DNA of 21,144 bases from a virus. Below are positions 5,188-21,144 of this stretch, one piece after another. Numbering within the stretch: the stretch's first letter is position 1; each line of letters begins with the position of its first letter. Made by a program: the position numbers and the translations under genes. The notes under the pieces were generated by a model. That model searched no databases and was not told where the DNA came from. It was given only the letters and a program-made list of their open reading frames with translations. The stretch spans positions 1-21,144 of IMG/VR virus record IMGVR_UViG_3300021364_002008. The stretch is one strand, 5' to 3'.

Positions 5188-5237
5188 TTGAAATAAATAG
5201 AAATCTAGAAGCACAACAACAGTTAGAGCAAAAATGA
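5166..5237 (+). pseudogene. Internally deleted relic of the MNYTITL small helper gene
   Basis: A 23-codon frame begins MNYTITL, exactly as in the 92-residue protein at 5880, and continues NRNLEAQQQLEQ, which matches that protein's C-terminal RNLEAQQEMEN. The 69 codons in between are gone (72 bases against 279, a difference of 207 bases that keeps the frame). The terminal TGA overlaps the ATG of the next fibre (ATGA), so the coupling junction has survived the deletion. It lies 9 bases after the previous stop. It may be a decayed duplicate, or it may be kept as a translated leader that feeds ribosomes to the gene at 5234. It is unlikely to have the parent's function. Confidence 0.8.
5192..5199 (+). 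promoter_or_regulatory. Weak candidate late-promoter element, AATAAATA
   Basis: It matches the relaxed NATAAATA late-promoter motif reported for T4-like cyanophages (from memory) and lies 34 bases before the ATG at 5234, a plausible leader length. It falls inside the relic gene, near the deletion junction. The same octamer occurs inside several coding regions here, so this is a low-confidence call. Confidence 0.2.
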
Positions 5238-5857
5238 GTAAAGTTCTAGATCTTGCTAACGATCTAACAAGTTTTGAGAGTAAGTATAATTCTGGAACTG
5301 GTGCTTTTGATAGTGTGATAACTGATACAATCTCCGAAAGCACTACTGGTTCTGGTGTAACGATTGATGGATTAAAAATTAAGGATACAGGAATTCAGGT
5401 AGGCGGGTTAGAAGGTGTTAACATTGATTCGAGTGGCCATGTCACGATGCCATATCAACCTGCTTTTATGGCACACGCTAACGAAGGCGGTAGTGAATAT
5501 TTTGCAGGGGGTAGTATTCCTTCTTTTAGTAATATAACCCTTAATACAGGTAATCATTTTAATGGTTCTCGATTTACGGCCCCAATCGCAGGACAATACC
5601 TATTTAGCTTTTCTATTTTGTCAGGCTCTAGCGGTGATTATGGTCTTATTCAGTTTATAAAAAACGGTAGTAGTTTTGTGTTTAATATAAATTGGACACA
5701 AATTTATTCGACAACAAATAATGATAAAGTTGCTAGTGCTACAAAAATAATATCTTTGAGTGCTGATGATTATGTAGAACTAGAAATTAATTCAACCTAT
5801 AATCATTTTTATTGGGATGCCAATTACAGCAGTTTCTGCGGATACTTTTTAGGTTAA
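5234..5857 (+). CDS. Small tail fibre with C1q-like tip domain
   Basis: The product has 207 residues. The first 70 form the docking and shaft part (MSKVLDLANDL, then TGSGVTIDGLKIKD and VNIDSSGHVTMP). From about residue 73 the pattern is that of a C1q-like jelly-roll: PYQPAFMAHAN, FNGSRFTAPIAGQYLFSFS, a central IQFIKNGSS strand, then ISLSADDYVELEI and a final FCGYFLG strand. C1q-like domains form compact trimers and often bind surface ligands, which suits a receptor-binding tip (family knowledge; the role here is inferred). The start overlaps the stop of the relic gene (ATGA). After the stop there are 22 bases with an AAGGA ribosome-binding site for the next gene. Confidence 0.75.
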   Translation: MSKVLDLANDLTSFESKYNSGTGAFDSVITDTISESTTGSGVTIDGLKIKDTGIQVGGLEGVNIDSSGHVTMPYQPAFMAHANEGGSEYFAGGSIPSFSNITLNTGNHFNGSRFTAPIAGQYLFSFSILSGSSGDYGLIQFIKNGSSFVFNINWTQIYSTTNNDKVASATKIISLSADDYVELEINSTYNHFYWDANYSSFCGYFLG

Positions 5858-5869
5858 ATTATTATACAC

Positions 5870-5874
5870 AAGGA
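5870..5874 (+). promoter_or_regulatory. Ribosome binding site AAGGA for the gene at 5880
   Basis: AAGGA lies 5 bases before the ATG, within the longest intergenic space of the window. It is one of the few free-standing ribosome-binding sites here; elsewhere the site is inside the upstream coding sequence. Confidence 0.6.
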
Positions 5875-5875
5875 A

Positions 5876-5901
5876 AAAAATGAACTACACAATTACACTT
5901 A
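5876..5901 (+). repeat. Copy 2 of the 26-base exact repeat
   Basis: Identical to 5162-5187. This is the intact copy, at the start of the 92-residue gene. Confidence 0.85.
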
Positions 5902-6158
5902 CAGAAACAGAAGACAAAGCATTGGCATATGCCGCAGCAAGTCAACAAGATTGGATAGACAATGTTGTACACAATCGTTGTCGTATTGCCATTGATGAAA
6001 TTGTAAAACTTGCAGTAGACAAGTTCATCGCAGCAGGCGAATCAATGCCTGGTGACAAAGAACAAATTGTTGCCATTGCATTTGAACGTGGTTGGGTGAA
6101 AACTGCCGCAGATAGAAATCTGGAAGCGCAACAAGAAATGGAGAATAACGCACCGTGA
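5880..6158 (+). CDS. Small conserved phage protein (MNYTITL family), possible fibre helper
   Basis: A 92-residue, mostly helical, soluble protein with a short beta start (MNYTITLTETEDKALAYAA), a central QQDWIDNVVHNRCRIAIDEI helix, and a polar C-terminus (DRNLEAQQEMENNAP). I associate this opening with small proteins found beside fibre genes in marine phages, but I know of no proven function. Its position, directly before a fibre and with a truncated duplicate before another fibre, suggests a helper or coupling role. Its G+C (about 40 percent) is above that of its neighbours. The last codons contain GGAG as the ribosome-binding site for the next gene, and the stop overlaps that gene's GTG start by four bases (GTGA). 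Confidence 0.75.
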   Translation: MNYTITLTETEDKALAYAAASQQDWIDNVVHNRCRIAIDEIVKLAVDKFIAAGESMPGDKEQIVAIAFERGWVKTAADRNLEAQQEMENNAP

Positions 6159-6733
6159 GCGGAGTCCTCAAACTTGGAAATATAACATTGGGTACAGAGA
6201 ACAATGGTAATATAGATTTGACCAATGTTGGTGAAATATCTTATAATAATCATCCTGCATTTTTTGCATACTTAGGCACAAAACAAACTAATTTTACCGA
6301 CCAAACATATGTAAAAGTATCATATGATACAATAGATATAGACACTCACAGTTCTTTTGATATTTCCTCATTTGTTGGTAGATACACAATACCTAGTGGT
6401 TGTAGTGGCACTTATCAAATAAATGCCAGAGTTACTGGATGGGCAGAGACAGATACAAATTTAAGAGATGACCATTTATATCTGAGAAAAAATGGTTCTA
6501 ATTATGAGGGTGTGGCAAACAGATGGTCCGGAAATGATATAGCACATCATTCTAATGTGTTGACAACAATTATGAATTTAAATGCAGGTGATTATTTAGA
6601 AATTTTTTATTTTTTAAATTCGGTAGACCAAACTGATAGCACAGTCCTGTCTAAAATGAGTGATTATACTCTAACTAGTGGTTGGGAAGAAGTAGAAAGA
6701 TTAACAACGTTTTGGGGATATAGGATACAATAA
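6155..6733 (+). CDS. Small tail fibre with C1q-like or jelly-roll tip, GTG start
   Basis: The 192-residue protein starts at a GTG that overlaps the preceding stop (GTGA). No ATG is placed to replace it, and the N-terminus so obtained (MSGVLKLGNITLGTENNG) fits the docking signature of the other fibres (M-x-x-x-L-x-L/V-G/N-G). From residue 33 (HPAFFAYLG) to the end it follows the C1q-like order: a YVKVSYDTIDIDTHSSFD strand pair, YTIPSGCSGTYQINARV, LYLRKNGSNYEG, NLNAGDYLEIFYF and the closing FWGYRIQ strand. It is paired with the other C1q-like fibre at 5234. The stop overlaps the next ATG by one base (TAATG). Confidence 0.75.
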   Translation: MSGVLKLGNITLGTENNGNIDLTNVGEISYNNHPAFFAYLGTKQTNFTDQTYVKVSYDTIDIDTHSSFDISSFVGRYTIPSGCSGTYQINARVTGWAETDTNLRDDHLYLRKNGSNYEGVANRWSGNDIAHHSNVLTTIMNLNAGDYLEIFYFLNSVDQTDSTVLSKMSDYTLTSGWEEVERLTTFWGYRIQ

Positions 6734-7305
6734 TGGCATCAGAGATACAACTCGGAGGTAAAACTTTATTTACCCAAACGGCAAACAATATGCCGGAAAT
6801 GCACACAAATGTTGTGATACCAGAAGCAACTAAAACTGCTCTTGGATTGAATCAATTGCCCGCAGGAACATCAGCACAAAGACCATCAACTCCTGCAGTT
6901 GGTATGATAAGATATAATACTGATTTAAAATCATTAGAATACTATAATACGAATAGTTTATCTGGTTCAACTTGGCATTCAGTTGGTCCGTTTGTCACGG
7001 TACAATTTAATGGCAACACAGGTTCTGTTATGAAATGGTGGGGTAATTATTCAAGTATTACCAGAAATACTACTGGAAATTATACACTAACATTTGCATC
7101 AGCGGTAGATACTAGTTATGCATGGCATATAGACACCGATACAAATAATTCAAGGTCTGGCAATCATGTAATGGGAATGAGTGGTTTCAGTGGTTATTAT
7201 TTTGTTTATAATTCAACGTATTTTACATTTACAACGTGTGATGTTGCTGCCACAACAAGGTCTGATTCAGAAATAATTTGGGTTTCATTGTGGAGTGTAG
7301 CATGA
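6733..7305 (+). CDS. Small tail fibre with AQRP collar repeat
   Basis: A 190-residue fibre. The docking segment is MASEIQLGGKTLFTQTANN. About residues 55-85 hold the phage fibre collar motif (GTSAQRPSTPAVGMIRYNT then YYN...W), also seen at 18605 and, as a degenerate tandem, at 19626. The tip (GSVMKWWGNYSSITRNTTG, then YTLTFASAVDTSYAW) resembles part of the CRAWVNF/TTAMPD domain in the genes at 8970 and 11783, but without the CRA-W strand. The gene ends with TGA inside an ATGA overlap with the downstream helper. GGAG in its final codons (gtg gag tgt) serves as the ribosome-binding site. Confidence 0.7.
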   Translation: MASEIQLGGKTLFTQTANNMPEMHTNVVIPEATKTALGLNQLPAGTSAQRPSTPAVGMIRYNTDLKSLEYYNTNSLSGSTWHSVGPFVTVQFNGNTGSVMKWWGNYSSITRNTTGNYTLTFASAVDTSYAWHIDTDTNNSRSGNHVMGMSGFSGYYFVYNSTYFTFTTCDVAATTRSDSEIIWVSLWSVA

Positions 7306-7721
7306 ATTATTTAATTTTACACACAAATCAAGAAGGTTCAGTCTCCAGCATTTGCATTGCGGGTTCTGAAGATTACAATAGGGTTCAAGAATATGTAATT
7401 AAAAATAATTTGAAAAATACTATTATCGTTTCTGATGATAGTTTGCCAGAAAGATCTCTAGAATATTGTAAAATAGTTGATGGTCAAGTTATTACTGATG
7501 AGGAATATAAAGAAAATAAAGCATTCGATTTAATGAGAAGAGAAAGAACCAGACTACTCCAACAAACAGATTGGACACAAAATCGTGATGTCACTCTTGC
7601 AAATGATGCGGAGTGGGCAGCATACAGACAAGCATTGAGAGACTTGCCGAACACCGCAACACCAGAATTAGATGAATATGGTAACTTGACAAATGTTACT
7701 TGGCCGGAGAAACCAGCATAA
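7302..7721 (+). CDS. Tail assembly chaperone-like helper (Phage_tail_APC type)
   Basis: I place the start at the ATG overlapping the previous TGA (ATGA), as in every other copy, rather than at the in-frame TTG 24 bases upstream; this gives 139 residues. The first 70 residues (MNYLILHTNQEGS...) are peculiar to this copy. The conserved core follows: RRERTRLLQQTDW (about 79-91), YRQALRDLP (108-116) and a terminal GNLTNVTWP. This is the pattern of the Phage_tail_APC family (PF16778, from memory), whose members accompany fibre genes. The function is inferred as folding or attachment help for the fibre just upstream. The stop overlaps the next ATG by one base (TAATG), with GGAG just before it. Confidence 0.8.
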   Translation: MNYLILHTNQEGSVSSICIAGSEDYNRVQEYVIKNNLKNTIIVSDDSLPERSLEYCKIVDGQVITDEEYKENKAFDLMRRERTRLLQQTDWTQNRDVTLANDAEWAAYRQALRDLPNTATPELDEYGNLTNVTWPEKPA

Positions 7722-8377
7722 TGGCAACACTTAAACTGAATAACACAACTGTTTTCACAGAAACAAATGGAGTAGCAAGCATACCAAGTGGTGTGACGTT
7801 TCCTGCTGGGCATGTGATTCAGGTTAAGTATAGTGAATTTTTAGATCCTGCTACATTTAGTTATACAAGCACTACAGCAGGTTGGGATTTTGGGACTCAA
7901 TCCACTAGAGTAGATAACAGTCATGCTGGAATTTTAACAGATTTAGAACTAACAATAACAACTAAACAAGATAATAGCATATTTATAATTAACAATTATT
8001 TTGCCGGTTGTACTAACAGTGACCCAAATGGTGCATATAATTGGGGAGCAGGAATCTTTTGTTCTTTAGATAATTATAATAGTTTAATATCAAAAGGAAA
8101 TAAACATCCTAGCTATACTTCTGTTGGAGAAGTTACATATGGTAGATGGATTTATCCTCCGAATGATTCATATAGTGATGAAGATTTTTATGGAACAATT
8201 AGACATTCACCCAATCAACCCAAAAATACAAGTATAACTTATAGAGTTGTAATTGATAATCCATACACTAGTGGTGGAAACACTGTATATGTAAATTATA
8301 GGTCTGGTTATTCAAATGCCTTGTCAGAGATGGCAAAGGTAGGAGCAACAATGACTATAATGGAGATAGCAGTATGA
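7721..8377 (+). CDS. Small tail fibre of the FPAGH...MEI family
   Basis: The ATG overlapping the preceding TAA is taken as the start (218 residues); an upstream TTG would overlap the helper by 22 bases and spoil the shared N-terminus. Docking segment MATLKLNNTTVFTETNG. The FPAGHVIQVK motif (about residues 27-36) marks the junction with the tip. The tip is all beta, with LTDLELTITTKQDNSIF and VGATMTIMEIAV at the C-terminus, a frame shared with fibres at 9490, 10056, 10598, 16152, 17626 and 20103. The loop-rich middle (Trp, Tyr, Asn, Asp) differs from all of them, as expected for a variable binding face. It ends with the GAG-containing ribosome-binding site and ATGA overlap for the next helper. 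Confidence 0.75.
   Translation: MATLKLNNTTVFTETNGVASIPSGVTFPAGHVIQVKYSEFLDPATFSYTSTTAGWDFGTQSTRVDNSHAGILTDLELTITTKQDNSIFIINNYFAGCTNSDPNGAYNWGAGIFCSLDNYNSLISKGNKHPSYTSVGEVTYGRWIYPPNDSYSDEDFYGTIRHSPNQPKNTSITYRVVIDNPYTSGGNTVYVNYRSGYSNALSEMAKVGATMTIMEIAV
8363..8377 (+). promoter_or_regulatory. Ribosome-binding site encoded in the fibre C-terminus, with ATGA coupling
   Basis: The codons for Glu-Ile in the conserved MEI tail (GAGATA, preceded by G of ATG) supply GGAG, placed 8 bases before the helper's ATG, which overlaps the fibre's TGA. The same layout, with GAG as the Glu codon, recurs at 11174, 16707, 18223 and 20712. Confidence 0.7.
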
Positions 8378-8733
8378 AAATAAGTATAGTAGATGCTATC
8401 AAAATTTTAAGACCGAATTCTTCATTTGGAACAAGAGGAAATAATATTATATGGAACGATTTAAATAATGCACAACCATCCGAAGAAGAAATCCAAGAAA
8501 AAATTGCAGAACTAGAAGCAGCAGAACCAATCAGACTTCTCCGTATTGAAAGAGACCGCAAACTCACAGAAGTAGATTGGTGGACAAGCCGTGCATTGGA
8601 TGGAACACCATTAACAGAAGAACAAATAGCATACAGACAATCATTGAGAGATTTACCAGAAAATTCTGCTAATGTTGCAATAGATGAAAATGGTACGCTA
8701 ATCAACGTAGAATGGCCAGTTAAACCGGAGTAA
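8374..8733 (+). CDS. Tail assembly chaperone-like helper (Phage_tail_APC type)
   Basis: The copy is 119 residues long with the full two-part architecture. The N-terminal section (MKISIVDAIKILRPNSSF, then NNIIWND) is shared with the helpers at 11185 and 20723. A linker helix follows (QPSEEEIQEKIAELEAAEP), then the core RLLRIERDR (about 56-64), VDWW (67-70), YRQSLRDLP (87-95) and a terminal INVEWP. The core differs from the consensus in having KLTEVDW in place of LLQQTDW. The gene is coupled to its fibre by ATGA. The next gene starts 2 bases after the stop, with GGAG in the Pro-Glu codons as its ribosome-binding site. The inferred role is assembly of the upstream fibre. Confidence 0.8.
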   Translation: MKISIVDAIKILRPNSSFGTRGNNIIWNDLNNAQPSEEEIQEKIAELEAAEPIRLLRIERDRKLTEVDWWTSRALDGTPLTEEQIAYRQSLRDLPENSANVAIDENGTLINVEWPVKPE

Positions 8734-8735
8734 AC

Positions 8736-8966
8736 ATGGGAAACTTATCAATCATCAAAGGTTTTGACAGTGAAGGAATGCGCCCAAGCAATGAGATTGT
8801 TGTAGACAAAGATGTAGTTGCAGAGACAGGTTATTCACAATTAATGATTGGACCTGTGACTGTTCCTAATCTCACTGTAAATGGCAATCTAAATGTAGTA
8901 TCAGAAATAAATATAACAGGAGATATAGAAATTGGTGCTAATGGACAACTCAACATCATTGGATAA
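8736..8966 (+). CDS. Short cap-family structural protein
   Basis: This 76-residue protein is nearly all beta-repeat: ETGYSQLMIGPVTVPNLTV, then NGNLNVVSEINITGD and GNGQLNIIG-like endings in which Asn-Gly turns recur about every eight residues. The YSxxxxGPVTV motif is shared with 4677, 11559, 15931 and the C-termini of the proteins at 12763 and 19626. Such sequences suggest a short right-handed beta-helix or triple beta-spiral, probably trimeric (inference). It directly follows a helper and directly precedes a series of fibres, as do the other free-standing caps. It could be the tip or collar of a composite fibre, or a spacer protein. I know no proven function. Confidence 0.7.
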   Translation: MGNLSIIKGFDSEGMRPSNEIVVDKDVVAETGYSQLMIGPVTVPNLTVNGNLNVVSEINITGDIEIGANGQLNIIG

Positions 8967-8969: not shown

Positions 8970-9485
8970 ATGGGTAATTTAACACTGAATGGACAGACAG
9001 TATTAACACAGGTGGGTACGAATACACCTGTAATGAATAATAGTGTTTTAAACAAAAGTTTTACAGAACTTGATACTAATTCACTACAGGGACCAATTTC
9101 AAATGCAGATAATACATCTTTACCTTTATTTGGCTGTAGAGCATTTGTGTGTTGGTCAGGAAGAACTTATACAAATATCAATGGGGAGAACCTTTGCGAC
9201 ATAGAAAGTTCTGGAAATGTATCAAAGGTTGTTCGTACAACCACCGGAACGTATCAAATTTATTTCGCTACACCAATGCCTGATGCTAATTATGCAGTGT
9301 TACATTGTCTTGCGGATGGTTCAAACAATTTTGGACCTGGAGGACAAATTGGTGTGTATACATCAATATGGGCTGACACAAGACCGGCAAACAAATTAGC
9401 AGGGTCTTTAGTAATGCAATTTAGATATCCGCATAATAATACTGCATATGATGTTCATGATTGTAATTTGGTAATTTTTAGGTAA
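8970..9485 (+). CDS. Small tail fibre with CRAFVCW / ATPMPDANY domain
   Basis: A fibre of 171 residues. Docking segment MGNLTLNGQTVLTQVGTNTP. From about residue 50 it matches a domain widespread in phage fibres: LFGCRAFVCWSGRTY, a GNVSKVVRTTTGTYQIYF strand set, ATPMPDANYAV, and a closing CNLVIFR. The same domain forms most of the protein at 11783 (CRAWVNFNG...TTAMPDTNYSV...VNVTIFR), so the two are tip paralogues in different modules. It is followed by another fibre with a 4-base gap instead of a helper. Binding to a cell-surface receptor is inferred. The start is 3 bases after the previous stop. Confidence 0.75.
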   Translation: MGNLTLNGQTVLTQVGTNTPVMNNSVLNKSFTELDTNSLQGPISNADNTSLPLFGCRAFVCWSGRTYTNINGENLCDIESSGNVSKVVRTTTGTYQIYFATPMPDANYAVLHCLADGSNNFGPGGQIGVYTSIWADTRPANKLAGSLVMQFRYPHNNTAYDVHDCNLVIFR

Positions 9486-9489: not shown

Positions 9490-10056
9490 ATGGCAACACT
9501 CAAACTCAACAGTTACGAACTATTTACTCAGAGTGAAAACAATAGACCAGAGTTTGGTACTGGGGTTCCTGCTGGGTGTATACTACAAGTTAAACAAGGA
9601 TTAAAAACTGATGATTTTAGTACAAATTTAGGTTATTATGTTGATGTTCCGAATTTATCTGTAACAATAACACCAAAATTCGCATCAAGTAATGTGTTGA
9701 TAAATTGTTGTATTTGGGCAGTTTCTACATATTTTGTTGGACATATAGGATTATTTCAAGATGATATAGAACTTGGTCTTGCCGATGCTGCGGGAAGCAG
9801 GCCCAGAGGATTTTTACACTTTTCACATCAAGATGATGATTCTGCAAATCATGGATTAATGGTTAATGTAACAGGACAATTATTAGTACCAGTTAATGAT
9901 ACATCTGAAAGAATTTACAAAATAAAAGCATCATCAAGATTTGACAATGAAGGTAGTCCTACACTGTATATTAATAGGTCTGAACCTGACAGAAATACAA
10001 ATACATATGACCAACGACATGTTTCTACTATAACTGTAATGGAGATAGCAGCATAA
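9490..10056 (+). CDS. Small tail fibre of the PAG...MEI family
   Basis: This fibre has 188 residues, with docking segment MATLKLNSYELFTQSENNRP, then EFGTGVPAGCILQVKQ in place of FPAGH, strands LSVTITPKFASSNVLINC, a variable middle rich in Asp and His (FLHFSHQDDDSANH), the phrase TLYINRSEP, and the family C-terminus VSTITVMEIAA. The N-terminal 35 residues are close to those of the next gene (FTQSGSDKPEFGAGVPSG), so these two arose by tandem duplication followed by tip divergence. No helper lies between them. The stop overlaps the next ATG by one base, and the MEI codons give GGAG as the ribosome-binding site. Confidence 0.75.
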   Translation: MATLKLNSYELFTQSENNRPEFGTGVPAGCILQVKQGLKTDDFSTNLGYYVDVPNLSVTITPKFASSNVLINCCIWAVSTYFVGHIGLFQDDIELGLADAAGSRPRGFLHFSHQDDDSANHGLMVNVTGQLLVPVNDTSERIYKIKASSRFDNEGSPTLYINRSEPDRNTNTYDQRHVSTITVMEIAA

Positions 10057-10598
10057 TGGCAACACTCAGTTTAGGCAATCAAACAATATTTACTCAGAGT
10101 GGAAGTGATAAACCAGAGTTTGGTGCTGGGGTTCCAAGTGGTACTATTATTCAAACTGTAATTAAAAATGAGCGAATTGGTAATGGAACTTTGAACAATG
10201 GTGATGAATTAGTTGGCAACTCAAATACTATAACAAGTACATTTTATGATTTATCAATTACCACTAAACATAATAACTCAAAAATTCATCTTGTTGCACA
10301 AAGTCCATATGTTTATACAGAAACCGCTACAGGAGCAGAAATTTGGTTTGTTAGAAACCCGAATACAGATAATGTAGATATAAACAGACCTGCTGACGGT
10401 ACTGGATATATTATATATGGTTCTTCTAATCATGGAGGTAGTAGAACTATAATTGCCTATGACATTCCTAATGTTTCTGCAAATACAACATTAAATTATG
10501 TTATAAGATTTAAAAGATATTCGGGGTCAAATGCTGTATGGTGGGTGTATGATAGAGGTGGATTTGGTGTATTTACAATAACAGAGATAGCAGCATAA
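10056..10598 (+). CDS. Small tail fibre of the PAG...MEI family, tandem paralogue
   Basis: A fibre of 180 residues. Docking segment MATLSLGNQTIFTQSGSDKP, then EFGAGVPSGTIIQTV, nearly the same as in the preceding gene. The shared strand phrase is STFYDLSITTKHNNSKIHL, and the C-terminus is FGVFTITEIAA. The central region (TATGAEIWFVRNPNTD, then IIYGSSNHGGSRTI) is unlike the neighbour's. It lies in a row of four fibres (8970, 9490, 10056, 10598) with one helper after the last, so the helper at 11185 may serve several. The overlap with the next gene is a TAATG, and the ribosome-binding site comes from the Glu-Ile codons (gag ata). Confidence 0.75.
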   Translation: MATLSLGNQTIFTQSGSDKPEFGAGVPSGTIIQTVIKNERIGNGTLNNGDELVGNSNTITSTFYDLSITTKHNNSKIHLVAQSPYVYTETATGAEIWFVRNPNTDNVDINRPADGTGYIIYGSSNHGGSRTIIAYDIPNVSANTTLNYVIRFKRYSGSNAVWWVYDRGGFGVFTITEIAA

Positions 10599-11188
10599 TG
10601 GCAAACATCATACTTAACGGAAAAACAGTAGTAACACAGACAGGTAACGATGAGCCGTTGATAGGTGGAAATGTTTTAATGCACAATGATGTATTGGCAA
10701 ATGCTACGTTTCCTGCTGGGCATATAATACAAGTACAATCTACGAATTTATCGGATACAAATAATCAAAATTTTGACGCCTCACCACCACAAATTTCTGA
10801 AACGGTTTCATATAATAGCACATCATTATTACCTTTAATAGAAACCAGTATAACCCCTATACATTCAACAAGTTATTTTTATATTACTTTATCTGGAAGA
10901 TTTGGAATTAACACAGGATACAGAAGTCAAATATTACTTACTAAAAACTGGAGTGGAGCAGGAACAAATGCGTATAATGATGGAAACTATATGTGGTATA
11001 CACATTATGGATTATTCAATAATACAGGAGGAGACTTATGGTATCCAGGTCAATATGCCTACATGGATAAACATCAAGACCATACAGTTGGTGTTCAAAG
11101 AACTTATTCATGGTTTGGTGGGAGAGTTGGTAGCGGAACCCAACTATACACAGCATTAAATATGACAGTCATGGAGATAAGGGTATGA
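10598..11188 (+). CDS. Small tail fibre of the FPAGH...MEI family
   Basis: The product is 196 residues. Docking segment MANIILNGKTVVTQTGNDEP, followed by a short extra segment (GGNVLMHNDVLANA), then FPAGHIIQVQ (about 38-47). The bases coding for the junction (18 bases ending at 10723) are identical to those at 7796-7813. The tip has LIETSITPIHSTSYFYI, a variable Gly/Asn/Trp/Tyr-rich middle (GAGTNAYNDGNYMWYTHYG) and LNMTVMEIRV at the end. Unlike the two fibres before it, this one ends in TGA inside an ATGA overlap with a helper, with GGAG from its Met-Glu codons 8 bases before that start. Confidence 0.75.
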   Translation: MANIILNGKTVVTQTGNDEPLIGGNVLMHNDVLANATFPAGHIIQVQSTNLSDTNNQNFDASPPQISETVSYNSTSLLPLIETSITPIHSTSYFYITLSGRFGINTGYRSQILLTKNWSGAGTNAYNDGNYMWYTHYGLFNNTGGDLWYPGQYAYMDKHQDHTVGVQRTYSWFGGRVGSGTQLYTALNMTVMEIRV

Positions 11189-14583: not shown

Positions 14584-15692
14584 TGGCAGGAATACTAAAA
14601 GTTGATAAAATACAAGAAGCAAATAGTGGCCAAGGTGTTGAACTTTCTCATAAGTTGGTAGACACCAGTGGTAACACCATAATCAGTGAAAACAATGGTG
14701 TTGCTACTTTTGGTTCTTCTGTTGCTCCTAGCGCATACTATACTTTTAGAAACAAGATCATCAATGGGAACTTTGACATTTGGCAAAGAGGAACAAGCCA
14801 AACAAGTAATGGGTATGGGAGTGCAGATAGATGGAGGAGTTTTGCATCGGGCTCAACATTGACAGCATCACAACAATCGTTCACACTTGGACAAACAGAT
14901 GTTCCTGGAAATCCCAAATATTATTTTCGATATGCAGTTTCAAGTGTTTCTGGATCAGGAAATAGTGGCAGATTAATGCAAAGAATCGAAGATGTTTCTT
15001 CTTTAGCAGGACAAACAGTCACATTGAGTTTCTGGGCTAAAGCAGATTCTAATAAAAATATTGCAACTGAGTTCACTAGGAATTTTGGAACAGGAGGTTC
15101 ACCATCTACCACTGAAGAAGAAATTCATGTTACTACTTACAACTTAACAACCTCTTGGCAAAAGTTTACAGCAACGGTTTCAATCCCATCTATTAGTGGA
15201 AAAACAATTGGTTCAGATGGTAATGATTATTTCCAATTACTTTTTTGGTTTGATGCAGGAAGTGATTTTAACTCCAGAACCAATTCACTAGGACAACAAT
15301 CTGGAACCTTTGATATTGCACAAGTCCAGTTGGAAGAAAGCACAGTTCCGACTCCTTTCGAGCATCGGCATATTGGGATGGAACTAAGTTTGTGTCAGAG
15401 ATATTTTCAAAATTTCAGAGGAGATGCTGGAATGCCATATAATCGTATTTTTTTACATAAAAATGCCTATTATGAATCTCAAGCATTTATCTTCCCAGTG
15501 GAAATGAGAGATGCTCCCGCTATGTCACATCAAGGTATTTTTGTCAGGGAACTCAATGCTTCTTCTACTACATCAGCGACAGAAAGTTTTACTGCTGATA
15601 GAAAAGGGTTTCACGCCACTTCAAACGTAACAAACAATTCCAACTTTTATACATTTGTTTGTACAAACGTAAGGGCAGATGCTGAACTTTAA
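14583..15692 (+). CDS. Tail fibre with NFDIWQRGTS carbohydrate-binding-like domain
   Basis: This is the longest of the small fibres (369 residues). Docking segment MAGILKVDKIQEANSGQGVE. From about residue 52 it follows a domain common in phage fibre proteins: YTFRNKIINGNFDIWQRG, SADRWRSFASGS, a VTLSFWAKAD strand, TTSWQKFTATVSIPS, FQLLFWFDAG, and QVQLEESTVPTPFEHR, which I associate with carbohydrate-binding-module-like jelly rolls. A distinct C-terminal segment starts at LSLCQRYFQNF (about 270) and probably forms the actual tip. Glycan binding is inferred from the fold type only. It is overlapped by one base with the helper before it. The helper after it belongs to a different family and starts after a 15-base gap. 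Confidence 0.8.
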   Translation: MAGILKVDKIQEANSGQGVELSHKLVDTSGNTIISENNGVATFGSSVAPSAYYTFRNKIINGNFDIWQRGTSQTSNGYGSADRWRSFASGSTLTASQQSFTLGQTDVPGNPKYYFRYAVSSVSGSGNSGRLMQRIEDVSSLAGQTVTLSFWAKADSNKNIATEFTRNFGTGGSPSTTEEEIHVTTYNLTTSWQKFTATVSIPSISGKTIGSDGNDYFQLLFWFDAGSDFNSRTNSLGQQSGTFDIAQVQLEESTVPTPFEHRHIGMELSLCQRYFQNFRGDAGMPYNRIFLHKNAYYESQAFIFPVEMRDAPAMSHQGIFVRELNASSTTSATESFTADRKGFHATSNVTNNSNFYTFVCTNVRADAEL

Positions 15693-15707
15693 AAGAGAAC
15701 CGAAAAA

Positions 15708-15923
15708 ATGAATATTACATTTGCGCAATATAGAGGATATACACCAGAAGGTGAAACAGATTTTGCAATTCAATCTATTTTTGCGATTATAGATGAAGAT
15801 CATGTTTTTGTACCACTAACTAATGGCAACCGCCACTATGCAGAAATCATGCGTCAAGTAGAAGCAGGAACACTGGTAATTCAATCAGCAGATGAACCAG
15901 AACAACAACCAGTAGGAGAATAA
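15708..15923 (+). CDS. Small NRHYAE-type phage protein, possible fibre helper
   Basis: A protein of 71 residues with a beta-rich first half (MNITFAQYRGYTPEG, FAIIDEDHVFVPLT) and the motif NGNRHYAEIMRQVEAGTLVI (about 44-63), followed by an acidic tail. The NRHYAEI-x-x-Q-hydrophobic motif is one I have seen in small proteins downstream of fibre and tail genes in various phages, but no function is known to me. It takes the position that an APC-type helper has in other modules and is followed by a cap gene, so a fibre-assembly role is plausible. Its Gly-Glu codons (gga gaa) give a ribosome-binding site for the next gene, whose ATG is 7 bases after the stop. Confidence 0.7.
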   Translation: MNITFAQYRGYTPEGETDFAIQSIFAIIDEDHVFVPLTNGNRHYAEIMRQVEAGTLVIQSADEPEQQPVGE

Positions 15924-15930
15924 ATACATT

Positions 15931-16155
15931 ATGTCAGGAACACTATACGTAGATAATCTTCAAAGTAAACTAATGATGCATGATACAACATATTCTGATG
16001 ATCTCACTATTACAGAAAATTATAGTGCATTACTTGTTGGGCCAATTACTGTCAGTGGTAATTTGACTGTTCCTACTACCAGTAATTTAACAGTATTTAA
16101 TTCCATCAGCGTCACAGGTGATGTAAACGTAACAGGAACATTGGATATAAGATGA
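15931..16155 (+). CDS. Short cap-family structural protein
   Basis: The 74-residue protein combines a docking-like start (MSGTLYVDNLQSKLMMHD) with the cap motif YSDDLTITENYSALLVGP and a run of short strands (SGNLTVPTTSNLTVFNSISV, VTGTLDIR). The NYSALLVGPITV phrase is nearly that of the gene at 11559 (NYSAILSGPVTV). Having both a docking signature and a cap suggests a minimal fibre with no variable tip, perhaps a place-holder or a core on which other proteins sit (speculative). It ends in TGA inside an ATGA overlap with the next fibre, an unusual junction for a cap gene. Confidence 0.7.
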   Translation: MSGTLYVDNLQSKLMMHDTTYSDDLTITENYSALLVGPITVSGNLTVPTTSNLTVFNSISVTGDVNVTGTLDIR

Positions 16156-16721
16156 GCGGAAGTATTACAGTAGGCGGAAAAGTACTCGCAAGTCACGATA
16201 ATGTCAGTGGTAAACTGAGCATGAGTGAGAATGTTGATATGTCGAATATGGTGTTTCCTGCTGGGCATGTTATCTCACATTCAATTCCGTTTTTTGATAA
16301 TGGAGTTGCGTCATCAATTGAAACTAGTAGTACCAGTTACCAAGAAACAGGTATAGAGGTTTCCCTAACAACAAAATTATCATCATCGGATTCTAGAATT
16401 GTTGTCCAATTTTACACAGGGTTCGCTCGAATGATTGGTAATATTAGTGCTATTACTATCTGGACTGTTGGTAGGTCAACAGCATCATCAACTACATATG
16501 CGAGTGCAACAGATTTAACTGATGATCAAAGTTCATATTTTTACCCTGGTGCTACCAATACTTATTGGTCGCAACATTCGACTTGGATTGATACTGGAAG
16601 CTATTTGGCGGATACAACGTATTATTATCAAATATATCTAAGGTCATATGTATCATACACAACACAGTTAGCACGACAGGGTGCAACTGTTTCACTGTTA
16701 GCCTACGAGGTGAAAATATGA
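16152..16721 (+). CDS. Small tail fibre of the FPAGH family
   Basis: A 189-residue fibre. Docking segment MSGSITVGGKVLASHDNVSG, close to that of the genes at 17065 (MAGTLRVGGKVLAIHN) and 17626 (MAGQLKVGGNIIASHS), which marks these three as one sub-group. FPAGHVISHS stands at about residues 35-44. The tip has IEVSLTTKLSSSDSRIVVQF, a variable Ser/Thr/Tyr-rich middle, the phrase TTQLARQGATVSLLAYEVKI, and a GAG-GTG (Glu-Val) pair near the end that gives GAGG as the ribosome-binding site for the helper. The stop is within the ATGA overlap with that helper. Confidence 0.75.
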   Translation: MSGSITVGGKVLASHDNVSGKLSMSENVDMSNMVFPAGHVISHSIPFFDNGVASSIETSSTSYQETGIEVSLTTKLSSSDSRIVVQFYTGFARMIGNISAITIWTVGRSTASSTTYASATDLTDDQSSYFYPGATNTYWSQHSTWIDTGSYLADTTYYYQIYLRSYVSYTTQLARQGATVSLLAYEVKI

Positions 16722-17065
16722 TTGAAAAAATTGACGCAATCCGCAGTTTAGTTGGTGGTGCAATCACACAAAAATATGGAGGTGATATTATTTATCACGA
16801 TGGACAGGTAACACCAACCGAGGAAGAAATTACAGCTAAGATCGCAGAACTTGAAGCAACCGAACCACTCCGACTTCTCCGAATTGAAAGAGACCGTTTA
16901 ATCCAGCAAACAGATTGGTGGGTGCTTCCAGACCGTACTGCTACACCAGCACAATTAGCATATCGCCAAGCACTTAGAGATTTACCAGCAAACAGCAATC
17001 CAGCACTAGATGAGAATGGTAATCTCACAGGTGTTGAATGGCCAGTATATAGTGAGGAAGCATAA
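16718..17065 (+). CDS. Tail assembly chaperone-like helper (Phage_tail_APC type)
   Basis: This 115-residue copy has the core closest to the consensus: RLLRIERDRLIQQTDWW (about 53-69), YRQALRDLP (82-90), LDENGNLTGVEWP. The linker is PTEEEITAKIAELEATEP. The N-terminal section (MIEKIDAIRSLVGGAITQ then GGDIIYHD) has lost the LRPN motif of other copies but keeps the glycine and the following hydrophobic strand. Coupled to its fibre by ATGA, to the next fibre by TAATG. The codons gag gaa near the end supply GAGGA for the next start. The function is inferred from family and position, as for the other copies. Confidence 0.8.
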   Translation: MIEKIDAIRSLVGGAITQKYGGDIIYHDGQVTPTEEEITAKIAELEATEPLRLLRIERDRLIQQTDWWVLPDRTATPAQLAYRQALRDLPANSNPALDENGNLTGVEWPVYSEEA

Positions 17066-17613
17066 TGGCAGGCACTCTTAGAGTTGGTGGAAAAGTATTA
17101 GCAATTCACAATTCGGAGACGGATGAGATAAGTTTAAATGATGTCTCATTTCATAATAAACTAGTAAAGATAGACAAAGTTGCAACTGGCACTCCTCTTA
17201 ACAATAACTTCATGAATAGTAATAGTTTTTCATGGGGAAACTCTGCTGTTGAGTTAGATTATACACCAATAAAATCTGGTAATTTACTTATTATACATGG
17301 ATATAACTCTGGTTATATTGACTTTAATGATGGAAGATTATATTCTACATTTTTAATGAGTCAGGATAATGGAACAACATTTATAAATGTTGCGAGTGAT
17401 GTAAATGGGATGAATATGTCTGTAGACCATCTAACACATTTTTATCACTATGATGGAACTGATTTTGGTGTAGGTGGAGGCGGCACACTTGGGTATTATA
17501 CTTTGCAAAACACAAATCCAATCAAAATAAGATTGTCTCACAGGGCGGATAAACAATGGAGATACTATCCTCCATGTATTATTCTTAGTTATGAATATGA
17601 AGTTATTAGTTAG
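17065..17613 (+). CDS. Small tail fibre, uncoupled paralogue
   Basis: A 182-residue fibre with the docking segment MAGTLRVGGKVLAIHNSETD and then an atypical junction (LNDVSFHNKLVKIDKVATG) without FPAGH. The tip has VELDYTPIKSGNLLIIHGYN, FLMSQDNGTTFINVASD, a glycine-rich loop (GTDFGVGGGGTLGYY), IKIRLSHRADKQ, and a C-terminus IILSYEYEVIS that aligns with the E-I/V end of the FPAGH family. The terminal Glu is coded by GAA, not GAG as in the seven other members. It is also one of the family members with no close coupling downstream: 12 bases separate its stop from the next ATG. The next gene is a fibre and no helper follows. Confidence 0.72.
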   Translation: MAGTLRVGGKVLAIHNSETDEISLNDVSFHNKLVKIDKVATGTPLNNNFMNSNSFSWGNSAVELDYTPIKSGNLLIIHGYNSGYIDFNDGRLYSTFLMSQDNGTTFINVASDVNGMNMSVDHLTHFYHYDGTDFGVGGGGTLGYYTLQNTNPIKIRLSHRADKQWRYYPPCIILSYEYEVIS

Positions 17614-17625
17614 GATAAACAAGTA

Positions 17626-18237
17626 ATGGCAGGACAACTCAAAGTAGGCGGAAACATAATCGCAAGTCACAGTGGTGTAGAGGGTGCCGGAACTGTTACT
17701 TTACAGAATACAACTTTGGATAGTGGTGTGGTGTTCCCTGCTGGGCATATAATAAAAATATCACATAATACACTACAAAACACCTCAACAAATAAAACTA
17801 CTGTTTCATCGTATCGGACTTGGACACCAACTAATCTTAATTGCGACCATATAACAGTAAACAATAACGCAAAACTTTATGTTCAATATCATATGCAAGC
17901 ATGGGTATTTGAAGAACAAACTGGAGTTGATACGACTGGTTGGACTAAAATCTATGATGATAGAACAGGTTCTTATGCGGCTTCTACTACATACGCAGAC
18001 CCAACAGGGCTACATATGAGAAGTTATGTCACAGGATGGTGGAGTTATGGTGCAACAATAAGCGTAATACGTGAAATAAATTTAACTGGTATTTTAGCAG
18101 AAACAACAGTTAATTTTAAAGTATATGGTTACAAATATAATAACAGTACTTCTGATTCATATATTGAATACAATGGTCCAGCATCTTTTAATGATGAAAG
18201 AGAATCTGTAATGACAATTTTTGAGGTGCAATCATGA
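17626..18237 (+). CDS. Small tail fibre of the FPAGH...FEV family
   Basis: A fibre of 203 residues with docking segment MAGQLKVGGNIIASHSGVEG, then GVVFPAGHIIKISHN (about 36-50). The tip has CDHITVNNNAKLYVQYHMQ, a Trp/Tyr/Thr-rich middle (GWTKIYDDRTGSY, RSYVTGWWSYG), TTVNFKVYGYKYNNS, and the C-terminus SVMTIFEVQS. The Phe-Glu-Val codons (ttt gag gtg) include GAGG 8 bases before the helper's ATG. The stop overlaps that ATG (ATGA). With 16152 and 17065 it forms a sub-group with V-GG docking segments, likely products of local duplication with tip divergence. Confidence 0.75.
   Translation: MAGQLKVGGNIIASHSGVEGAGTVTLQNTTLDSGVVFPAGHIIKISHNTLQNTSTNKTTVSSYRTWTPTNLNCDHITVNNNAKLYVQYHMQAWVFEEQTGVDTTGWTKIYDDRTGSYAASTTYADPTGLHMRSYVTGWWSYGATISVIREINLTGILAETTVNFKVYGYKYNNSTSDSYIEYNGPASFNDERESVMTIFEVQS
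18223..18237 (+). promoter_or_regulatory. Ribosome-binding site in conserved FEV tail, with ATGA coupling
   Basis: GAGGTG (codons for Glu-Val) lies a few bases before the ATG of the helper, which overlaps the fibre's TGA. It has the same construction as 16707-16721 and 20712-20726. Confidence 0.7.
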
Positions 18238-18605
18238 TTGATATTATCAATGCATTGATAGAAATTACAAAAGACACAGGTGCTCAATTTAATATTCAAG
18301 GTAATACATATAATGGAATTGAATGGCTTTCAAAAGATATTACAATGCCAACCGAAGAAGAAATCCAAGCAAAAATCGCAGAACTGCAAGCAGCCGAACC
18401 AATGAGACTTCTTCGTATTGAGAGAAACCTTTTAATCCAGCAAACAGATTGGAGAGCCACTGTTGACTATCCAAATCCAGACAAACAAGCATGGCTAGAC
18501 TATCGTCAAGCACTCAGAGATTTACCAGGAACAGCAGACCCACAACTTGATGAAAATGGACAATTAACAAATATTACATGGCCACTATCACCTGAGGAAC
18601 AATAA
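18234..18605 (+). CDS. Tail assembly chaperone-like helper (Phage_tail_APC type)
   Basis: This 123-residue copy has a distinct N-terminus (MIDIINALIEITKDTGAQFN, IQGNTYNGIEWL), then the linker PTEEEIQAKIAELQAAEP and the core LLRIERNLLIQQTDW (about 58-72), YRQALRDLP (89-97), LDENGQLTNITWP and SPEEQ. It appears mosaic: the linker is nucleotide-identical over 26 bases to the helper at 11185, and the second half is nearly identical to the helper at 14323 (48 bases exact, then a few changes to the stop). Coupled by ATGA upstream and TAATG downstream, with gag gaa as the next ribosome-binding site. Confidence 0.8.
   Translation: MIDIINALIEITKDTGAQFNIQGNTYNGIEWLSKDITMPTEEEIQAKIAELQAAEPMRLLRIERNLLIQQTDWRATVDYPNPDKQAWLDYRQALRDLPGTADPQLDENGQLTNITWPLSPEEQ
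18481..18528 (+). repeat. 48-base identity between two helper genes, copy 2
   Basis: Identical to 14459-14506. Flanking bases through the stop codon are also highly similar, including the CCTGAGGAACAATAATG junction. Confidence 0.85.
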
Positions 18606-19504
18606 TGCCAGGAAGTTTAACCTTATCACAAATTTCTACCAATGAACTAAGAGATTTGAATGACAATGTGATGATGAGTGATGGTGTGTTGTCTGCTAAT
18701 ATAAAATTTCCTCATGGAACAACAGCACAAAGGCCAGCAGCAGCTGCTATTGGTGATATTAGAATAAATACAGATTTTAATATATTAGAATATTATAATG
18801 GAATAGGTTGGGTTAATTCTAAAAATTCTTATAATCCTGTACAAGGAGATTTAATATTTGAATTAGATGCAAAACATCCTGATAGTTATAGTGCAATCCA
18901 TGATAGTAGCAATGTAAGATGGAAAAATTTAAGAGACAATAATCTTTCAGCAGTTAGCAATGGCGGTCCAACATATAATGCTACAGATAGATATTTTAAT
19001 TTTGATGGCAATGATACATTTTCATTAAGTTCAATTGTAAGTGGATATCCTTTTACTGTTACAGTTTGGTTCACTACTGATTCGTGGGACCCAGTTGGTT
19101 TTAATCAAATATTAAACATGAGCATAGGAGGACAAAGAGTTAGTTTAGGAATAACCGATAGTTGGGTTGCTGAAGGAGAAATTGCATTGATGTATGGAGG
19201 CACTAATCATTGGGGAACTGGATATAATTCTTCAACAATGACAGCAAATACGTGGCATAACATAACATGGGTAGTTTATGGTTCCAATAACACAAATCAT
19301 AAAATATATTTAAATAATGTTTCTCAAACTATGAACAACCGAGGCGGCGGTCACGGAGGCGCTGCTGGTTGGAATTTGGGTTCTAATAGTGCTTCTGCTG
19401 AATACTGGGAAGGTAAAATATCATATTTAGCAATATACGGCAACACTTTATCCTCAGCACAAGTTGGAAACATTTATAATTCTATGGTAGGTATGTATTC
19501 ATGA
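18605..19504 (+). CDS. Tail fibre with AQRP collar and LamG-like tip
   Basis: The product is 299 residues. N-terminus MPGSLTLSQISTNELRDLND, then NVMMSDGVLSANIKFPHG, shared at nucleotide level with the truncated gene at the window end and in looser form with 20103. GTTAQRPAAAAIGDIRINTD (about 38-57) and the YYNGIGW phrase form the collar repeat. Residues 78-299 are LamG-like: LIFELDAKHPDSYS, YFNFDGNDTFSLSS, FTVTVWFTTDSWD, WHNITWVVYGSNNTNHKIYL, and the closing EGKISYLAIYGNTLSSAQV. It is the second LamG tip of the window, on a different N-terminus from that at 13412. The stop overlaps the ATG of a truncated helper (ATGA). Confidence 0.8.
   Translation: MPGSLTLSQISTNELRDLNDNVMMSDGVLSANIKFPHGTTAQRPAAAAIGDIRINTDFNILEYYNGIGWVNSKNSYNPVQGDLIFELDAKHPDSYSAIHDSSNVRWKNLRDNNLSAVSNGGPTYNATDRYFNFDGNDTFSLSSIVSGYPFTVTVWFTTDSWDPVGFNQILNMSIGGQRVSLGITDSWVAEGEIALMYGGTNHWGTGYNSSTMTANTWHNITWVVYGSNNTNHKIYLNNVSQTMNNRGGGHGGAAGWNLGSNSASAEYWEGKISYLAIYGNTLSSAQVGNIYNSMVGMYS
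18644..18684 (+). repeat. Fibre N-terminal repeat, copy 1
   Basis: This 41-base stretch coding for ELRDLNDNVMMSDG matches 21104-21144 at 39 of 41 positions. It belongs to the docking and shaft part of two fibre genes in successive modules. Confidence 0.8.
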
Positions 19505-19626
19505 ATTTTAGAGAACTTGCACTTGACATATTATATCCTCAATGGAGAAATAATTCTATCAATGCACTGAATGATAATGGAGAGTTGATCAATGTGAATT
19601 GGCCAGTACCACCGGGAGAAAAATAA
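19501..19626 (+). CDS. Truncated tail assembly chaperone-like gene
   Basis: A 41-codon frame (MNFRELALDILYPQW, then LNDNGELINVNWPVPPGEK) retains only the C-terminal end of the helper: the ENG-x-L-x-NV-x-WP motif and PPGE tail match those of the helper at 20723 (17 bases of AATTGGCCAGTACCACC identical). The LRPN section, the EEEI linker, the RIERDR and TDW motifs are missing, and the YRQALRDLP helix is at best vestigial (FRELALDIL). The ATGA start overlap with the LamG fibre and the TAATG junction with the next gene are both intact. It is probably non-functional as a helper, but may still pass ribosomes to the next gene. Confidence 0.75.
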   Translation: MNFRELALDILYPQWRNNSINALNDNGELINVNWPVPPGEK

Positions 19627-20102
19627 TGCCAGCAAAACTTTATATAGATGAAATATTATCATCTAGTGTAAATACTTCAATTTCAATATCAAATACTGAT
19701 ATTAAATTGCAACAATTATCTTCCGATCCTGTATCAGCCACAGCAGGACAATTGTATTATAATACTACTGATAATGTAATAAAATTTTATAATGGTACTG
19801 AATGGTTGAATGTTTCAGGAGGAGATATTGTTTTAGAAAATTTATCTTCCGATCCTGCATCAGCAAATACAGGACAATTGTATTATAATACCACTGATAA
19901 TGTCATAAAGTTTTATAATGGCACTGAATGGTTAAATACTTCACAAGGTTCAACTGATCCTAATTTTTTCGAAAATGATGTAGTTTTAACATCATCATAC
20001 ACTATTACTACAAACAAGAATGCTTTAACTGCTGGACCTGTGACAGTTGCAAATGGTGTGATCATCACAGTGCCGGTAGGCTCAACATGGACGATAGTAT
20101 AA
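19626..20102 (+). CDS. Cap-type fibre protein with tandem collar repeats
   Basis: I take the ATG overlapping the previous TAA as the start (158 residues), as at other helper boundaries; a longer frame from 19599 would run through the truncated helper. MPAKLYIDEILSSSVNTS resembles the docking segments. Residues 31-62 and 73-104 are two near-identical 32-residue units (LSSDPVSATAGQLYYNT, then VIKFYNGTEWLN), relatives of the AQRP collar repeat. The last 40 residues (NDVVLTSSYTITTNKNALTA, GPVTVANGVIITVPVGS, WTIV) are the cap motif in a form common in marine phage fibres. It opens the last module. The next ATG follows the stop without a gap. Confidence 0.78.
   Translation: MPAKLYIDEILSSSVNTSISISNTDIKLQQLSSDPVSATAGQLYYNTTDNVIKFYNGTEWLNVSGGDIVLENLSSDPASANTGQLYYNTTDNVIKFYNGTEWLNTSQGSTDPNFFENDVVLTSSYTITTNKNALTAGPVTVANGVIITVPVGSTWTIV
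19716..19811 (+). repeat. 96-base in-frame tandem unit, copy 1
   Basis: It matches 19842-19937 at about 86 of 96 positions by hand count, and most differences fall at third codon positions or in the four-residue segment after DP. Thirty bases of unrelated spacer separate the copies. This is a recent internal duplication of a collar motif. Confidence 0.85.
19842..19937 (+). repeat. 96-base in-frame tandem unit, copy 2
   Basis: Second copy of the unit at 19716-19811. Both code for a 32-residue beta motif ending in FYNGTEWLN. Confidence 0.85.
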
Positions 20103-20726
20103 ATGGCAACAAGTATAATCAAGACAGATGAAATTAGAAGACTGAATGACCAAGTGTTGATGAGTGATGGAGCATTGACAAGTAATGTTGTGTTTCCTGC
20201 TGGTCATGTATTGCAAGTGTTACACACCGTAGATGACAATAATTATACATTTAGTTCTGGTGTGAATGATTGGACTGGTATAACAAATCTTTATTGTGAT
20301 ATTGTTCCAAAATTTTCTAATAGTAAAATAATGATTATGTATACTGCCCATTATGCAGATTATGGAGATGGTGCTGACCCTGGAGCAGTAAATGATAGTG
20401 CGCCTAGATTTGCTATTGGTAAAAATGGAACAATTTTATCAGGATACAATCAAGATGGTGGGAGAGGATATGGTGATTTTGGAACATATATAGACATTCA
20501 AAATTCATCCAATTTATCTCATTTTGATGGTTCAAATATACGAGAAGATTCTAATGTAGGAACTACATCTAGTGTAAGATATCAAGTCATGGTACGTTCA
20601 GGAACAGCAAATGCTTGGGCAAATCAACGATTTTTTATAAATCGCTCATTAAGATTTTCTAACAATCAATGGTATAATGCAAGTAGAATGAGGTCAACTA
20701 TTACATTATTTGAGGTAAAGCAATGA
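20103..20726 (+). CDS. Small tail fibre of the FPAGH...FEV family
   Basis: A 207-residue fibre. N-terminus MATSIIKTDEIRRLNDQVLM, then SDGALTSNVVFPAGHVLQVL; it combines the LND-x-V-x-MSDG segment of the gene at 18605 with the FPAGH junction of the main family, a clear mosaic. The tip has CDIVPKFSNSKIMIMYTAHY, a Gly/Asp/Tyr/Asn-rich middle, VRYQVMVRSGTANAWANQ, RFFINRSLRFSNNQ and the ending RSTITLFEVKQ. These closing motifs are the most typical of the family in the window. GAG-GTA near the end gives GAGG before the helper's ATG, which overlaps this stop (ATGA). The start follows the preceding TAA directly. Confidence 0.77.
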   Translation: MATSIIKTDEIRRLNDQVLMSDGALTSNVVFPAGHVLQVLHTVDDNNYTFSSGVNDWTGITNLYCDIVPKFSNSKIMIMYTAHYADYGDGADPGAVNDSAPRFAIGKNGTILSGYNQDGGRGYGDFGTYIDIQNSSNLSHFDGSNIREDSNVGTTSSVRYQVMVRSGTANAWANQRFFINRSLRFSNNQWYNASRMRSTITLFEVKQ

Positions 20727-21076
20727 AGTATTCTATTTCAGATGCAATGATTCGTCTTAGACCTAATTCCAAATTTATTATAATAAATGAAACTCAAGTT
20801 ATTTGGAATGACTATGAAAGACCACAACCAACAGAAGAAGAAATCCAAGCAAAAATTGCAGAACTAGAAGCAGCCGAACCACTACGTCTTCTCCGTATTG
20901 AAAGAGACCGTTTAATTCAACAAACCGATTGGCGCTTTCGTAGTGACCTAACACCAAGTCAAGAATGGATTGATTACTGCCAAGCATTGAGAGACTTGCC
21001 TGCAAACAGTGAACCACAATTAGATGAAAATGGAAATCTTACAAATGTTAATTGGCCAGTACCACCAGGAGAGTAA
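20723..21076 (+). CDS. Tail assembly chaperone-like helper (Phage_tail_APC type)
   Basis: This 117-residue copy carries the full plan: MKYSISDAMIRLRPNSKF then TQVIWND, linker QPTEEEIQAKIAELEAAEP, core RLLRIERDRLIQQTDW (about 54-70), then YCQALRDLP (85-93), LDENGNLTNVNWP and PPGE. The Cys in place of the usual Arg in the YRQALRDLP motif is unique among the copies and is a single-base CGC to TGC change. Its C-terminal end is the nearest match to the truncated gene at 19501. The terminal gga gag codons supply GGAGAG for the next gene, whose ATG is 3 bases after the stop. Confidence 0.8.
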   Translation: MKYSISDAMIRLRPNSKFIIINETQVIWNDYERPQPTEEEIQAKIAELEAAEPLRLLRIERDRLIQQTDWRFRSDLTPSQEWIDYCQALRDLPANSEPQLDENGNLTNVNWPVPPGE

Positions 21077-21079
21077 CGA

Positions 21080-21144
21080 ATGCCAAGTGCTTTAAGAATC
21101 AAAGAACTGAGAGATTTGAATGATAATGTGATGATGAGTGATGG
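21080..21144 (+). CDS. Start of a further small tail fibre, cut by the window end
   Basis: Only 21 codons are present (MPSALRIKELRDLNDNVMMS then DG). The segment ELRDLNDNVMMSDG is the same as in the LamG fibre at 18605, 39 of 41 bases matching, so a fibre gene is expected to continue past the edge, probably with a FPxG junction soon after. The tip type cannot be told. A GGAGAG ribosome-binding site lies 7 bases upstream, inside the end of the helper gene. Confidence 0.75.
   Translation, partial: MPSALRIKELRDLNDNVMMSD
21104..21144 (+). repeat. Fibre N-terminal repeat, copy 2
   Basis: Matches 18644-18684 at 39 of 41 positions, and extends to the window edge, so the true repeat may be longer. 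Confidence 0.75.

Follow-up and report, generated by a model that had tools for sequence, protein, structure and literature searches.

The DNA analysed here, called the window below, is the 21,144-base IMG/VR virus record IMGVR_UViG_3300021364_002008 (positions 1 to 21,144), and most of it is taken up by a row of short fibre genes. The main genes all lie on the plus strand with intact open reading frames (ORFs), and they mostly overlap by 1–4 nt or are separated by gaps of a few nucleotides. From position 5234 to the window end we identified 16 complete fibre genes and one more (f39) that is truncated at the edge. A first-pass annotation had reported at least a dozen fibre genes in a row, which this count bears out, and the starts it listed are those of intact plus-strand ORFs. 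It had also taken the gene at 15931 for a fibre; this encodes instead a 74-residue protein (a29) that is constant in relatives. Profile matches above the curated cut-off gave eight PF16778 tail assembly chaperones in the whole window, seven of them from 5234 onward. The array also holds further small helper genes and the short proteins a14, a20, a24, a29 and a36, with a06 just upstream. The PF16778 chaperones, the other tip-specific helpers and the conservation of slots across phages were absent from that annotation. In what follows, the N-terminal segment of a fibre is called its plug, the remainder its tip, and the place of the gene in the array its slot.

The fibres had been described as sharing one docking-like N-terminus. 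When a leave-one-out position-specific scoring matrix was compared with shuffles for the 17 genes, a common motif was significant in 11 (f10, f12, f15–f18, f25, f27, f30, f32 and f33; p≤0.002), weak in five (f09, f21, f35, f37 and f39; p 0.03–0.10) and absent in f07 (p 0.43), which has a longer, unrelated N-terminus. By eye, the plugs fall into several classes. The TVFTQ class comprises f10 (6733–7305), f12 (7721–8377), f15 (8970–9485), f16 (9490–10056), f17 (10056–10598) and f18 (10598–11188). The VGGKVLASH class comprises f30 (16152–16721), f32 (17065–17613) and f33 (17626–18237), and the KVDxIxE class f25 (13412–14326) and f27 (14583–15692). The class with RDLNDNVMMSDG is made of f35 (18605–19504), f37 (20103–20726) and the plug of f39 (21080–21144). 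The outliers are f07 (5234–5857), f09 (6155–6733) and f21 (11783–12307). A related motif thus stands for 11 of the 17 genes, but with several plug classes and support limited to these 11, a single N-terminus is an oversimplification.

Pfam and PHROGs matches distinguished six or more tip types and supported all five that had been named before. The tip of f07 is C1q (Pfam C1q, E=7e-11), and f09 has a C1q-related tip. LamG_3 tips are found on f25 and f35, the NFDIWQRG tip, with a weak CBM_4_9 match, on f27, CRAWVNF tips on f15 and f21, and FPAGH/MEI (here MEI) tips on f12, f16, f18, f30, f33 and f37. The tips of f10, f17 and f32, at 6733, 10056 and 17065, fit none of the five clearly. A short motif, AQRPxxxAxGxIRxNTDxxxLEYYN, is common to f10 and f35 and occurs in many PHROGs.

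A nucleotide search with positions 1–8000 and 14583–21144 of the window against public phage genomes returned short local matches only, so the slot comparison was built on metagenomic viral contigs. Neither g05 (3910–4671) nor fibre f30 had a match in the phage collection. Related contigs (labelled G and L) were found by searches with chaperone c31, protein g05, protein a24 and same-slot fibre alignments. The 93-kb contig G008 starts with T4-type terminase, sheath, Portal_T4, prohead protease (Peptidase_S77) and Gp23 genes, for which the window is too short, and L028 has a T4_neck-protein gene (E=5e-35) shortly downstream of its array. Judged from these two relatives, the array belongs to the host recognition cluster region of T4-like phages, adjoining the neck gene. 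G008 carries 13 PF16778 matches, and long arrays are therefore not unique to the window.

In the related contigs, the plugs recur slot by slot and carry different tips. This comparison gives good support to the earlier proposal that a conserved N-terminal segment is joined to varied tips. At slot f33, 27 of the first 28 residues are invariant across six phages and no later column is, and the tips found there elsewhere are of the LamG, NFDIWQRG or MEI type. Slots f30, f32, f25 and f27 behave in the same way, with f30 and f27 often retaining the same tip class. The f37 plug is kept in nine contigs, none of which has a similar tip. Along residues 1–60, the mean identity over 15 slots falls from 0.89 (residues 1–5) to 0.13–0.15 beyond residue 40, and the plug length is about 25–35 residues. 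Between the window and G008, 17 genes have reciprocal-best plug matches, and 13 of these are fibres, with 14–22 of 24 residues identical; the best paralogous plug inside the window reaches 13 of 24 at most (residues 1–24). The tips of same-slot fibres in these two records have no detectable similarity except for f09 and f10 (77–80% identical), where G008 has the same tip and, at f10, keeps both plug and tip. Among the window, G008 and L026, tips are replaced at most slots, and the fibre content is thus hypervariable between related phages. Slot f09 has a CRAWVNF-class tip in G016 and L055, slot f15 has an MEI tip in L026, slot f17 has a CRAWVNF tip in L026 and G008, and slot f32 has CRAWVNF tips in L007 and L008. 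For f07, the start is kept in L003 (97% nt identity) and the tip is 47% identical. No plug counterpart of f35 was found among the related contigs.

In the four best-sampled slots (f37, f33, f30 and f39), the pooled ratio of nonsynonymous to synonymous divergence (dN/dS) of the plugs is 0.12–0.21, with dS up to 0.85; the values of 0 for f25 and 0.48 for f32 were both obtained at low divergence. Codon comparison thus indicates that the plugs are under purifying selection. The low dN/dS at such a dS implies that the plug is conserved as a protein and not just as DNA. This bears on the idea that the conserved 5′ segments are DNA recombination arms or a translation-coupling sequence instead of protein docking parts. 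Some exchange junctions do fall where the conserved segment ends, or close to it, but synonymous sites diverge while the protein is kept, and plugs that differ strongly between slots would make poor arms for moves from one slot to another. We consider this idea very improbable.

The order of the plugs is also largely kept in close relatives. Against G008, 112 of 136 pairs are concordant (p=5e-5), and L008 and L026 are fully concordant. A common partner on the virion had been proposed earlier, with competition among the fibres as one outcome. If all plugs competed for one common socket, a mixed virion population would result, and the recognisable motif shared by 11 of the 17 plugs allows that related plugs bind one fold. 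Plugs nevertheless diverge between slots yet are kept within slots across phages, and a common socket gives distinct slot sequences no reason to persist. Separate sockets fit the alignments better, because plugs match the same slot elsewhere over the other plugs of their own genome, stay distinct across a dS of up to 0.85 and are largely collinear between close relatives. The proposal of a common partner is weakened accordingly, and we regard one shared socket as unlikely.

The tips are followed by genes of their own kind. The seven PF16778 chaperones of the array are c11 (7302–7721), c13 (8374–8733), c19 (11185–11559, with a slot-specific tail), c26 (14323–14583, belonging to the LamG cassette of f25), c31 (16718–17065), c34 (18234–18605) and c38 (20723–21076). 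The pair g22 and c23 (12323–12763) follows CRAWVNF tips and is also present at slot f32 of L007 and L008, and g28 (15708–15923) is of a helper type found after NFDIWQRG tips. Tip and following-gene classes were assigned by profile searches. MEI tips were followed by APC chaperones in 49 of 49 classified cases, CIKY tips by CT genes in 9 of 9, Gly-rich tips by FAKV genes in 4 of 4 and LamG tips by APC chaperones in 4 of 4. For CRAWVNF (IFR) tips, g22 followed in 7 of 9. NFDIWQRG tips preceded g28-type genes in 18 of 27 cases and APC chaperones in the remainder. The table of tips against helpers is nearly block-diagonal, with a mutual information of 1.31 bits, where none of 2000 shuffles exceeded 0.35, although related sequences are counted several times and the shuffle test therefore overstates the significance. 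A tip class and its own assembly genes downstream thus travel as a unit.

Three cassettes of the window were found in other slots of related phages. The LamG tip and chaperone at 13637–14561 (slot f25) correspond to slot f33 of L006 (96.4% nt identity), 7782–8558 (slot f12) to slot f18 of L026 (96.4%), and 10700–11391 (slot f18) to slot f37 of L012 (95.1%). The 5′ junction of the first lies at GTGACTTTACAGAA (VTLQN), and its identity extends close to the end of the chaperone. The other two have their 5′ junctions inside the FPAGH codons (TTTCCTGCTGG...) and their 3′ junctions in the chaperone core coding AEPxRLLRIERDR. In the window, f25 retains GGEVTLQN ahead of its tip, resembling the end of an f33-type plug, and this suggests that its LamG tip came from an f33-type slot.

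Chaperones of the same slot in different phages have differing heads and, in close relatives, slot-linked tails, as in c31; this contrast fades when distant relatives are added. Within genomes, the chaperone cores differed at synonymous sites by 0.24–0.45 in three records with three or more copies, and by 0.43 and 0.69 in single pairs from two other records. Between genomes they were less alike (0.53–0.74). Such likeness within genomes is expected if exchange runs through the cores, and shared codon bias could contribute.

Plug and tip mosaics could also arise as artefacts of metagenome assembly through repeated motifs. The joints are indeed short repeats, and two single cases look as a chimera could look. 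In L009 (583–1146), an f37 plug is joined to the slot-f30 tip of L010, identical past the FPAGH joint and followed by slots f32 and f33, which is either an unequal exchange or a chimera. In L006 (2003–2158), the slot-f33 plug stands twice in tandem, and the copies agree at 78 of 78 bases; the cause is either a duplication of recent date or an artefact of assembly. The three main cassettes, in contrast, are 95–96% and not 100% identical, come from different metagenomes and share just short exact stretches at their 5′ joints, and the difference between plug and tip holds across many contigs. Individual cases, L009 and L006 above all, may thus be chimeras, but this does not threaten the overall pattern, and as a general explanation chimeras have hardly any likelihood.

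Since tips clearly move between slots, most cassettes might be an archive that is rarely incorporated, with recombination moving tips singly into one active slot. Against this, every ORF is intact and its start tightly coupled, each slot has its own conserved plug, and no dedicated switch gene was found. The absence of an invertase or reverse transcriptase noted by the first-pass annotation held for the window record, and neither RVT_1 nor serine resolvase/invertase (Resolvase) had a match in it or in five relatives (all may be incomplete, and the two longest measure 93 and 86 kb; tyrosine recombinases were not searched for). As signs of a programmed tropism switch by a diversity-generating retroelement or invertible fibre genes, a reverse transcriptase or serine invertase near the fibre genes was looked for, and the six records contain no match to either. 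An archive is, in our estimate, improbable.

For several tips, the match to long fibres of other phages is confined to the C-terminal end (PHROG 6942 at residues 526–707 of 708; PHROG 4492 at 788–1095 of 1096), and the short fibre genes therefore resemble tips that lack the long shaft. An AlphaFold model of f37, built with 52 related sequences, shows the tip as a β sandwich starting at residue 35. Its best matches in the PDB are TNF-like lectins (the BC2L-C N-terminal domain and PLTL) and the Pgp3 C-terminal domain, with modest TM-scores. The modelled MEI tip is consistent with a C1q/TNF-type knob that binds sugars, in which case MEI and C1q tips would be fold relatives. For f21, the AlphaFold model resembled tailspikes and pyocin fibres only weakly, and we do not rely on it.

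Just before and between the fibres lie further proteins, most of them kept in relatives. The first, a06 (4677–5156), has an N-terminal module conserved in relatives and a short end, GPxxFTGTLNVEGTLNII; the module is joined to full tips in L008, L028, L030 and G008. The short protein a14 (8736–8966) is constant in G008, a20 (11559–11777) is also a short constant protein, a29 (15931–16155) matches L008 in 24 of 24 N-terminal residues, and a36 (19626–20102) is a short protein with a GPVTVANGVIITVPVGSTWTIV end. The protein a24 (12763–13410) contains two VYxNGxKLxExxDYT-type repeats and, unlike its fibre neighbours, is constant over its whole length in relatives, which makes it a candidate docking platform.

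Upstream of the array, a glycine-rich protein truncated at the window start (26–1405; PF21722, PHROG 4474) is followed by g02, c03 and the conserved pair g04–g05, which is common to L001 and L002. The start of g08 (5862–6001) has 73–75% nt identity to Limnohabitans phage DC33 and Synechococcus phage S-SRM01 and about 82% to G008 and G016. Promoter and terminator scans were close to chance, and TATAAATA late-promoter-like sites were not enriched (2 observed against 3.8 expected); we therefore make no argument from operon structure.

Taken together, we assign a probability of about 0.68 to the array being a multi-slot receptor-binding array of a T4-like phage, with slot-specific plugs that have their own docking sites and exchangeable tips that come with helpers. 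Each fibre gene would consist of a short plug of about 25–35 residues and an exchangeable tip, and the downstream chaperone or other helper would serve the tip class of its cassette. Tips would be exchanged by homologous recombination at short shared motifs (FPAGH, VTLQN and the chaperone motif). Each plug would dock at a separate site of a composite baseplate or fibre scaffold, perhaps via the constant a-type proteins; we infer this docking from slot-specific selection and from precedents in Ackermannviridae (PMC11414711) and Klebsiella phages (PMC6872550). One virion may then carry many different tips together, several with sugar-binding-like folds, that could be retooled singly without disturbing assembly. 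The evidence from gene comparison for the plug, tip and cassette anatomy is strong.

Several observations weigh against this interpretation. No docking partner for the plugs was found by sequence in a24 or the like, and a gp10-like docking or XD branching domain had no Pfam or PDB sequence match in a24 and similar proteins, although divergent folds could be missed. The f37 plug was modelled with low confidence. Slots f37 and f27 seem to favour one tip class, and the plugs of the more distant G016 and L055 stand in a different order, with blocks rearranged. Every relative used is a metagenome assembly, and the array fibres are known from genes alone.

Parts of the array's design have counterparts in known systems. 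PMC7029224 places the host recognition cluster of pelagimyophages and cyanomyophages between VrlC and the neck gene gp14, and PMC3909814 describes metaviromic islands with C1q-tip and tail-fibre variability and a better-conserved N-terminus. The present array is likewise a hypervariable tail-fibre island of T4-like phages, and its relatives abut a T4 neck gene; in the passages of these papers covered here, a row of short fibres with slot-specific plugs, tip–helper pairing and moves between slots are not described. The branched complex of Ackermannviridae is built from tailspikes that each combine their own set of conserved N-terminal assembly domains with a receptor-binding part that varies; recombination exchanges this part and leaves assembly intact (PMC11414711). 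A slot-conserved N-terminus with a variable receptor-binding part is common to both systems. The Ackermannviridae complex has at most four tailspikes, which are large and carry gp10-like XD domains, whereas the window has 16 or more short fibres with plugs of about 25–35 residues, its chaperones move with the tips, and sequence comparison gave no gp10-like domain.

Very short conserved N-terminal peptides are thought to attach variable receptor-binding proteins in Klebsiella phages and K1-5 (29 residues in KP32 viruses; hepta- and undecapeptides in K1-5; PMC6872550), and the short peptide ahead of a variable protein recalls the plugs described here. Those proteins are depolymerase spikes, far fewer per phage in KP32-like cases; PhiK64-1 has 11. 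The plugs of the window are slot-specific over many slots in one array. An anchor protein of the Klebsiella/K1-5 type with a gp10-like docking domain had no sequence match in a24 and similar proteins. The cultured T4-like marine Methylophilales phage Melnitz (MZ577098; PMC9004378) also has FPAGH/MEI fibres with a small N-terminus; FAKV-type genes come after its Gly-rich tips, and tail assembly chaperones are annotated in it. It has fewer such genes, however, and its similarity to the window is weak (31% for one tip). The hypervariable island and slot-conserved anchors with variable tips (Ackermannviridae, Klebsiella phages) are thus already known; the scale, the very short plugs and the cassette joints look like a new form of such systems. 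We found no description of a plug, tip and chaperone cassette array on this scale in the open-licence literature searched.

Hypervariable fibre islands are known in marine T4-like phages, but their mode of variation is poorly described. The anatomy of slots, plugs and cassettes offers a concrete rule for what stays, what moves, where the joints lie and which helper goes with each tip. It predicts many different fibres per particle and plug-specific docking sites, and it would help in reading, from sequence alone, which tips uncultured phages possess. A fixed plug with a swapped tip and helper suggests how such phages retool host recognition. More tentatively, and with somewhat less than even odds, each virion may be a self-assembling set of a dozen or more adhesins, whose positions are addressed by peptides of ~25 residues and whose tips and folding chaperones are swapped as standard cassettes between positions and phages. 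If true, this would be a natural plug-and-play receptor-binding system exceeding the branched complexes compared here.

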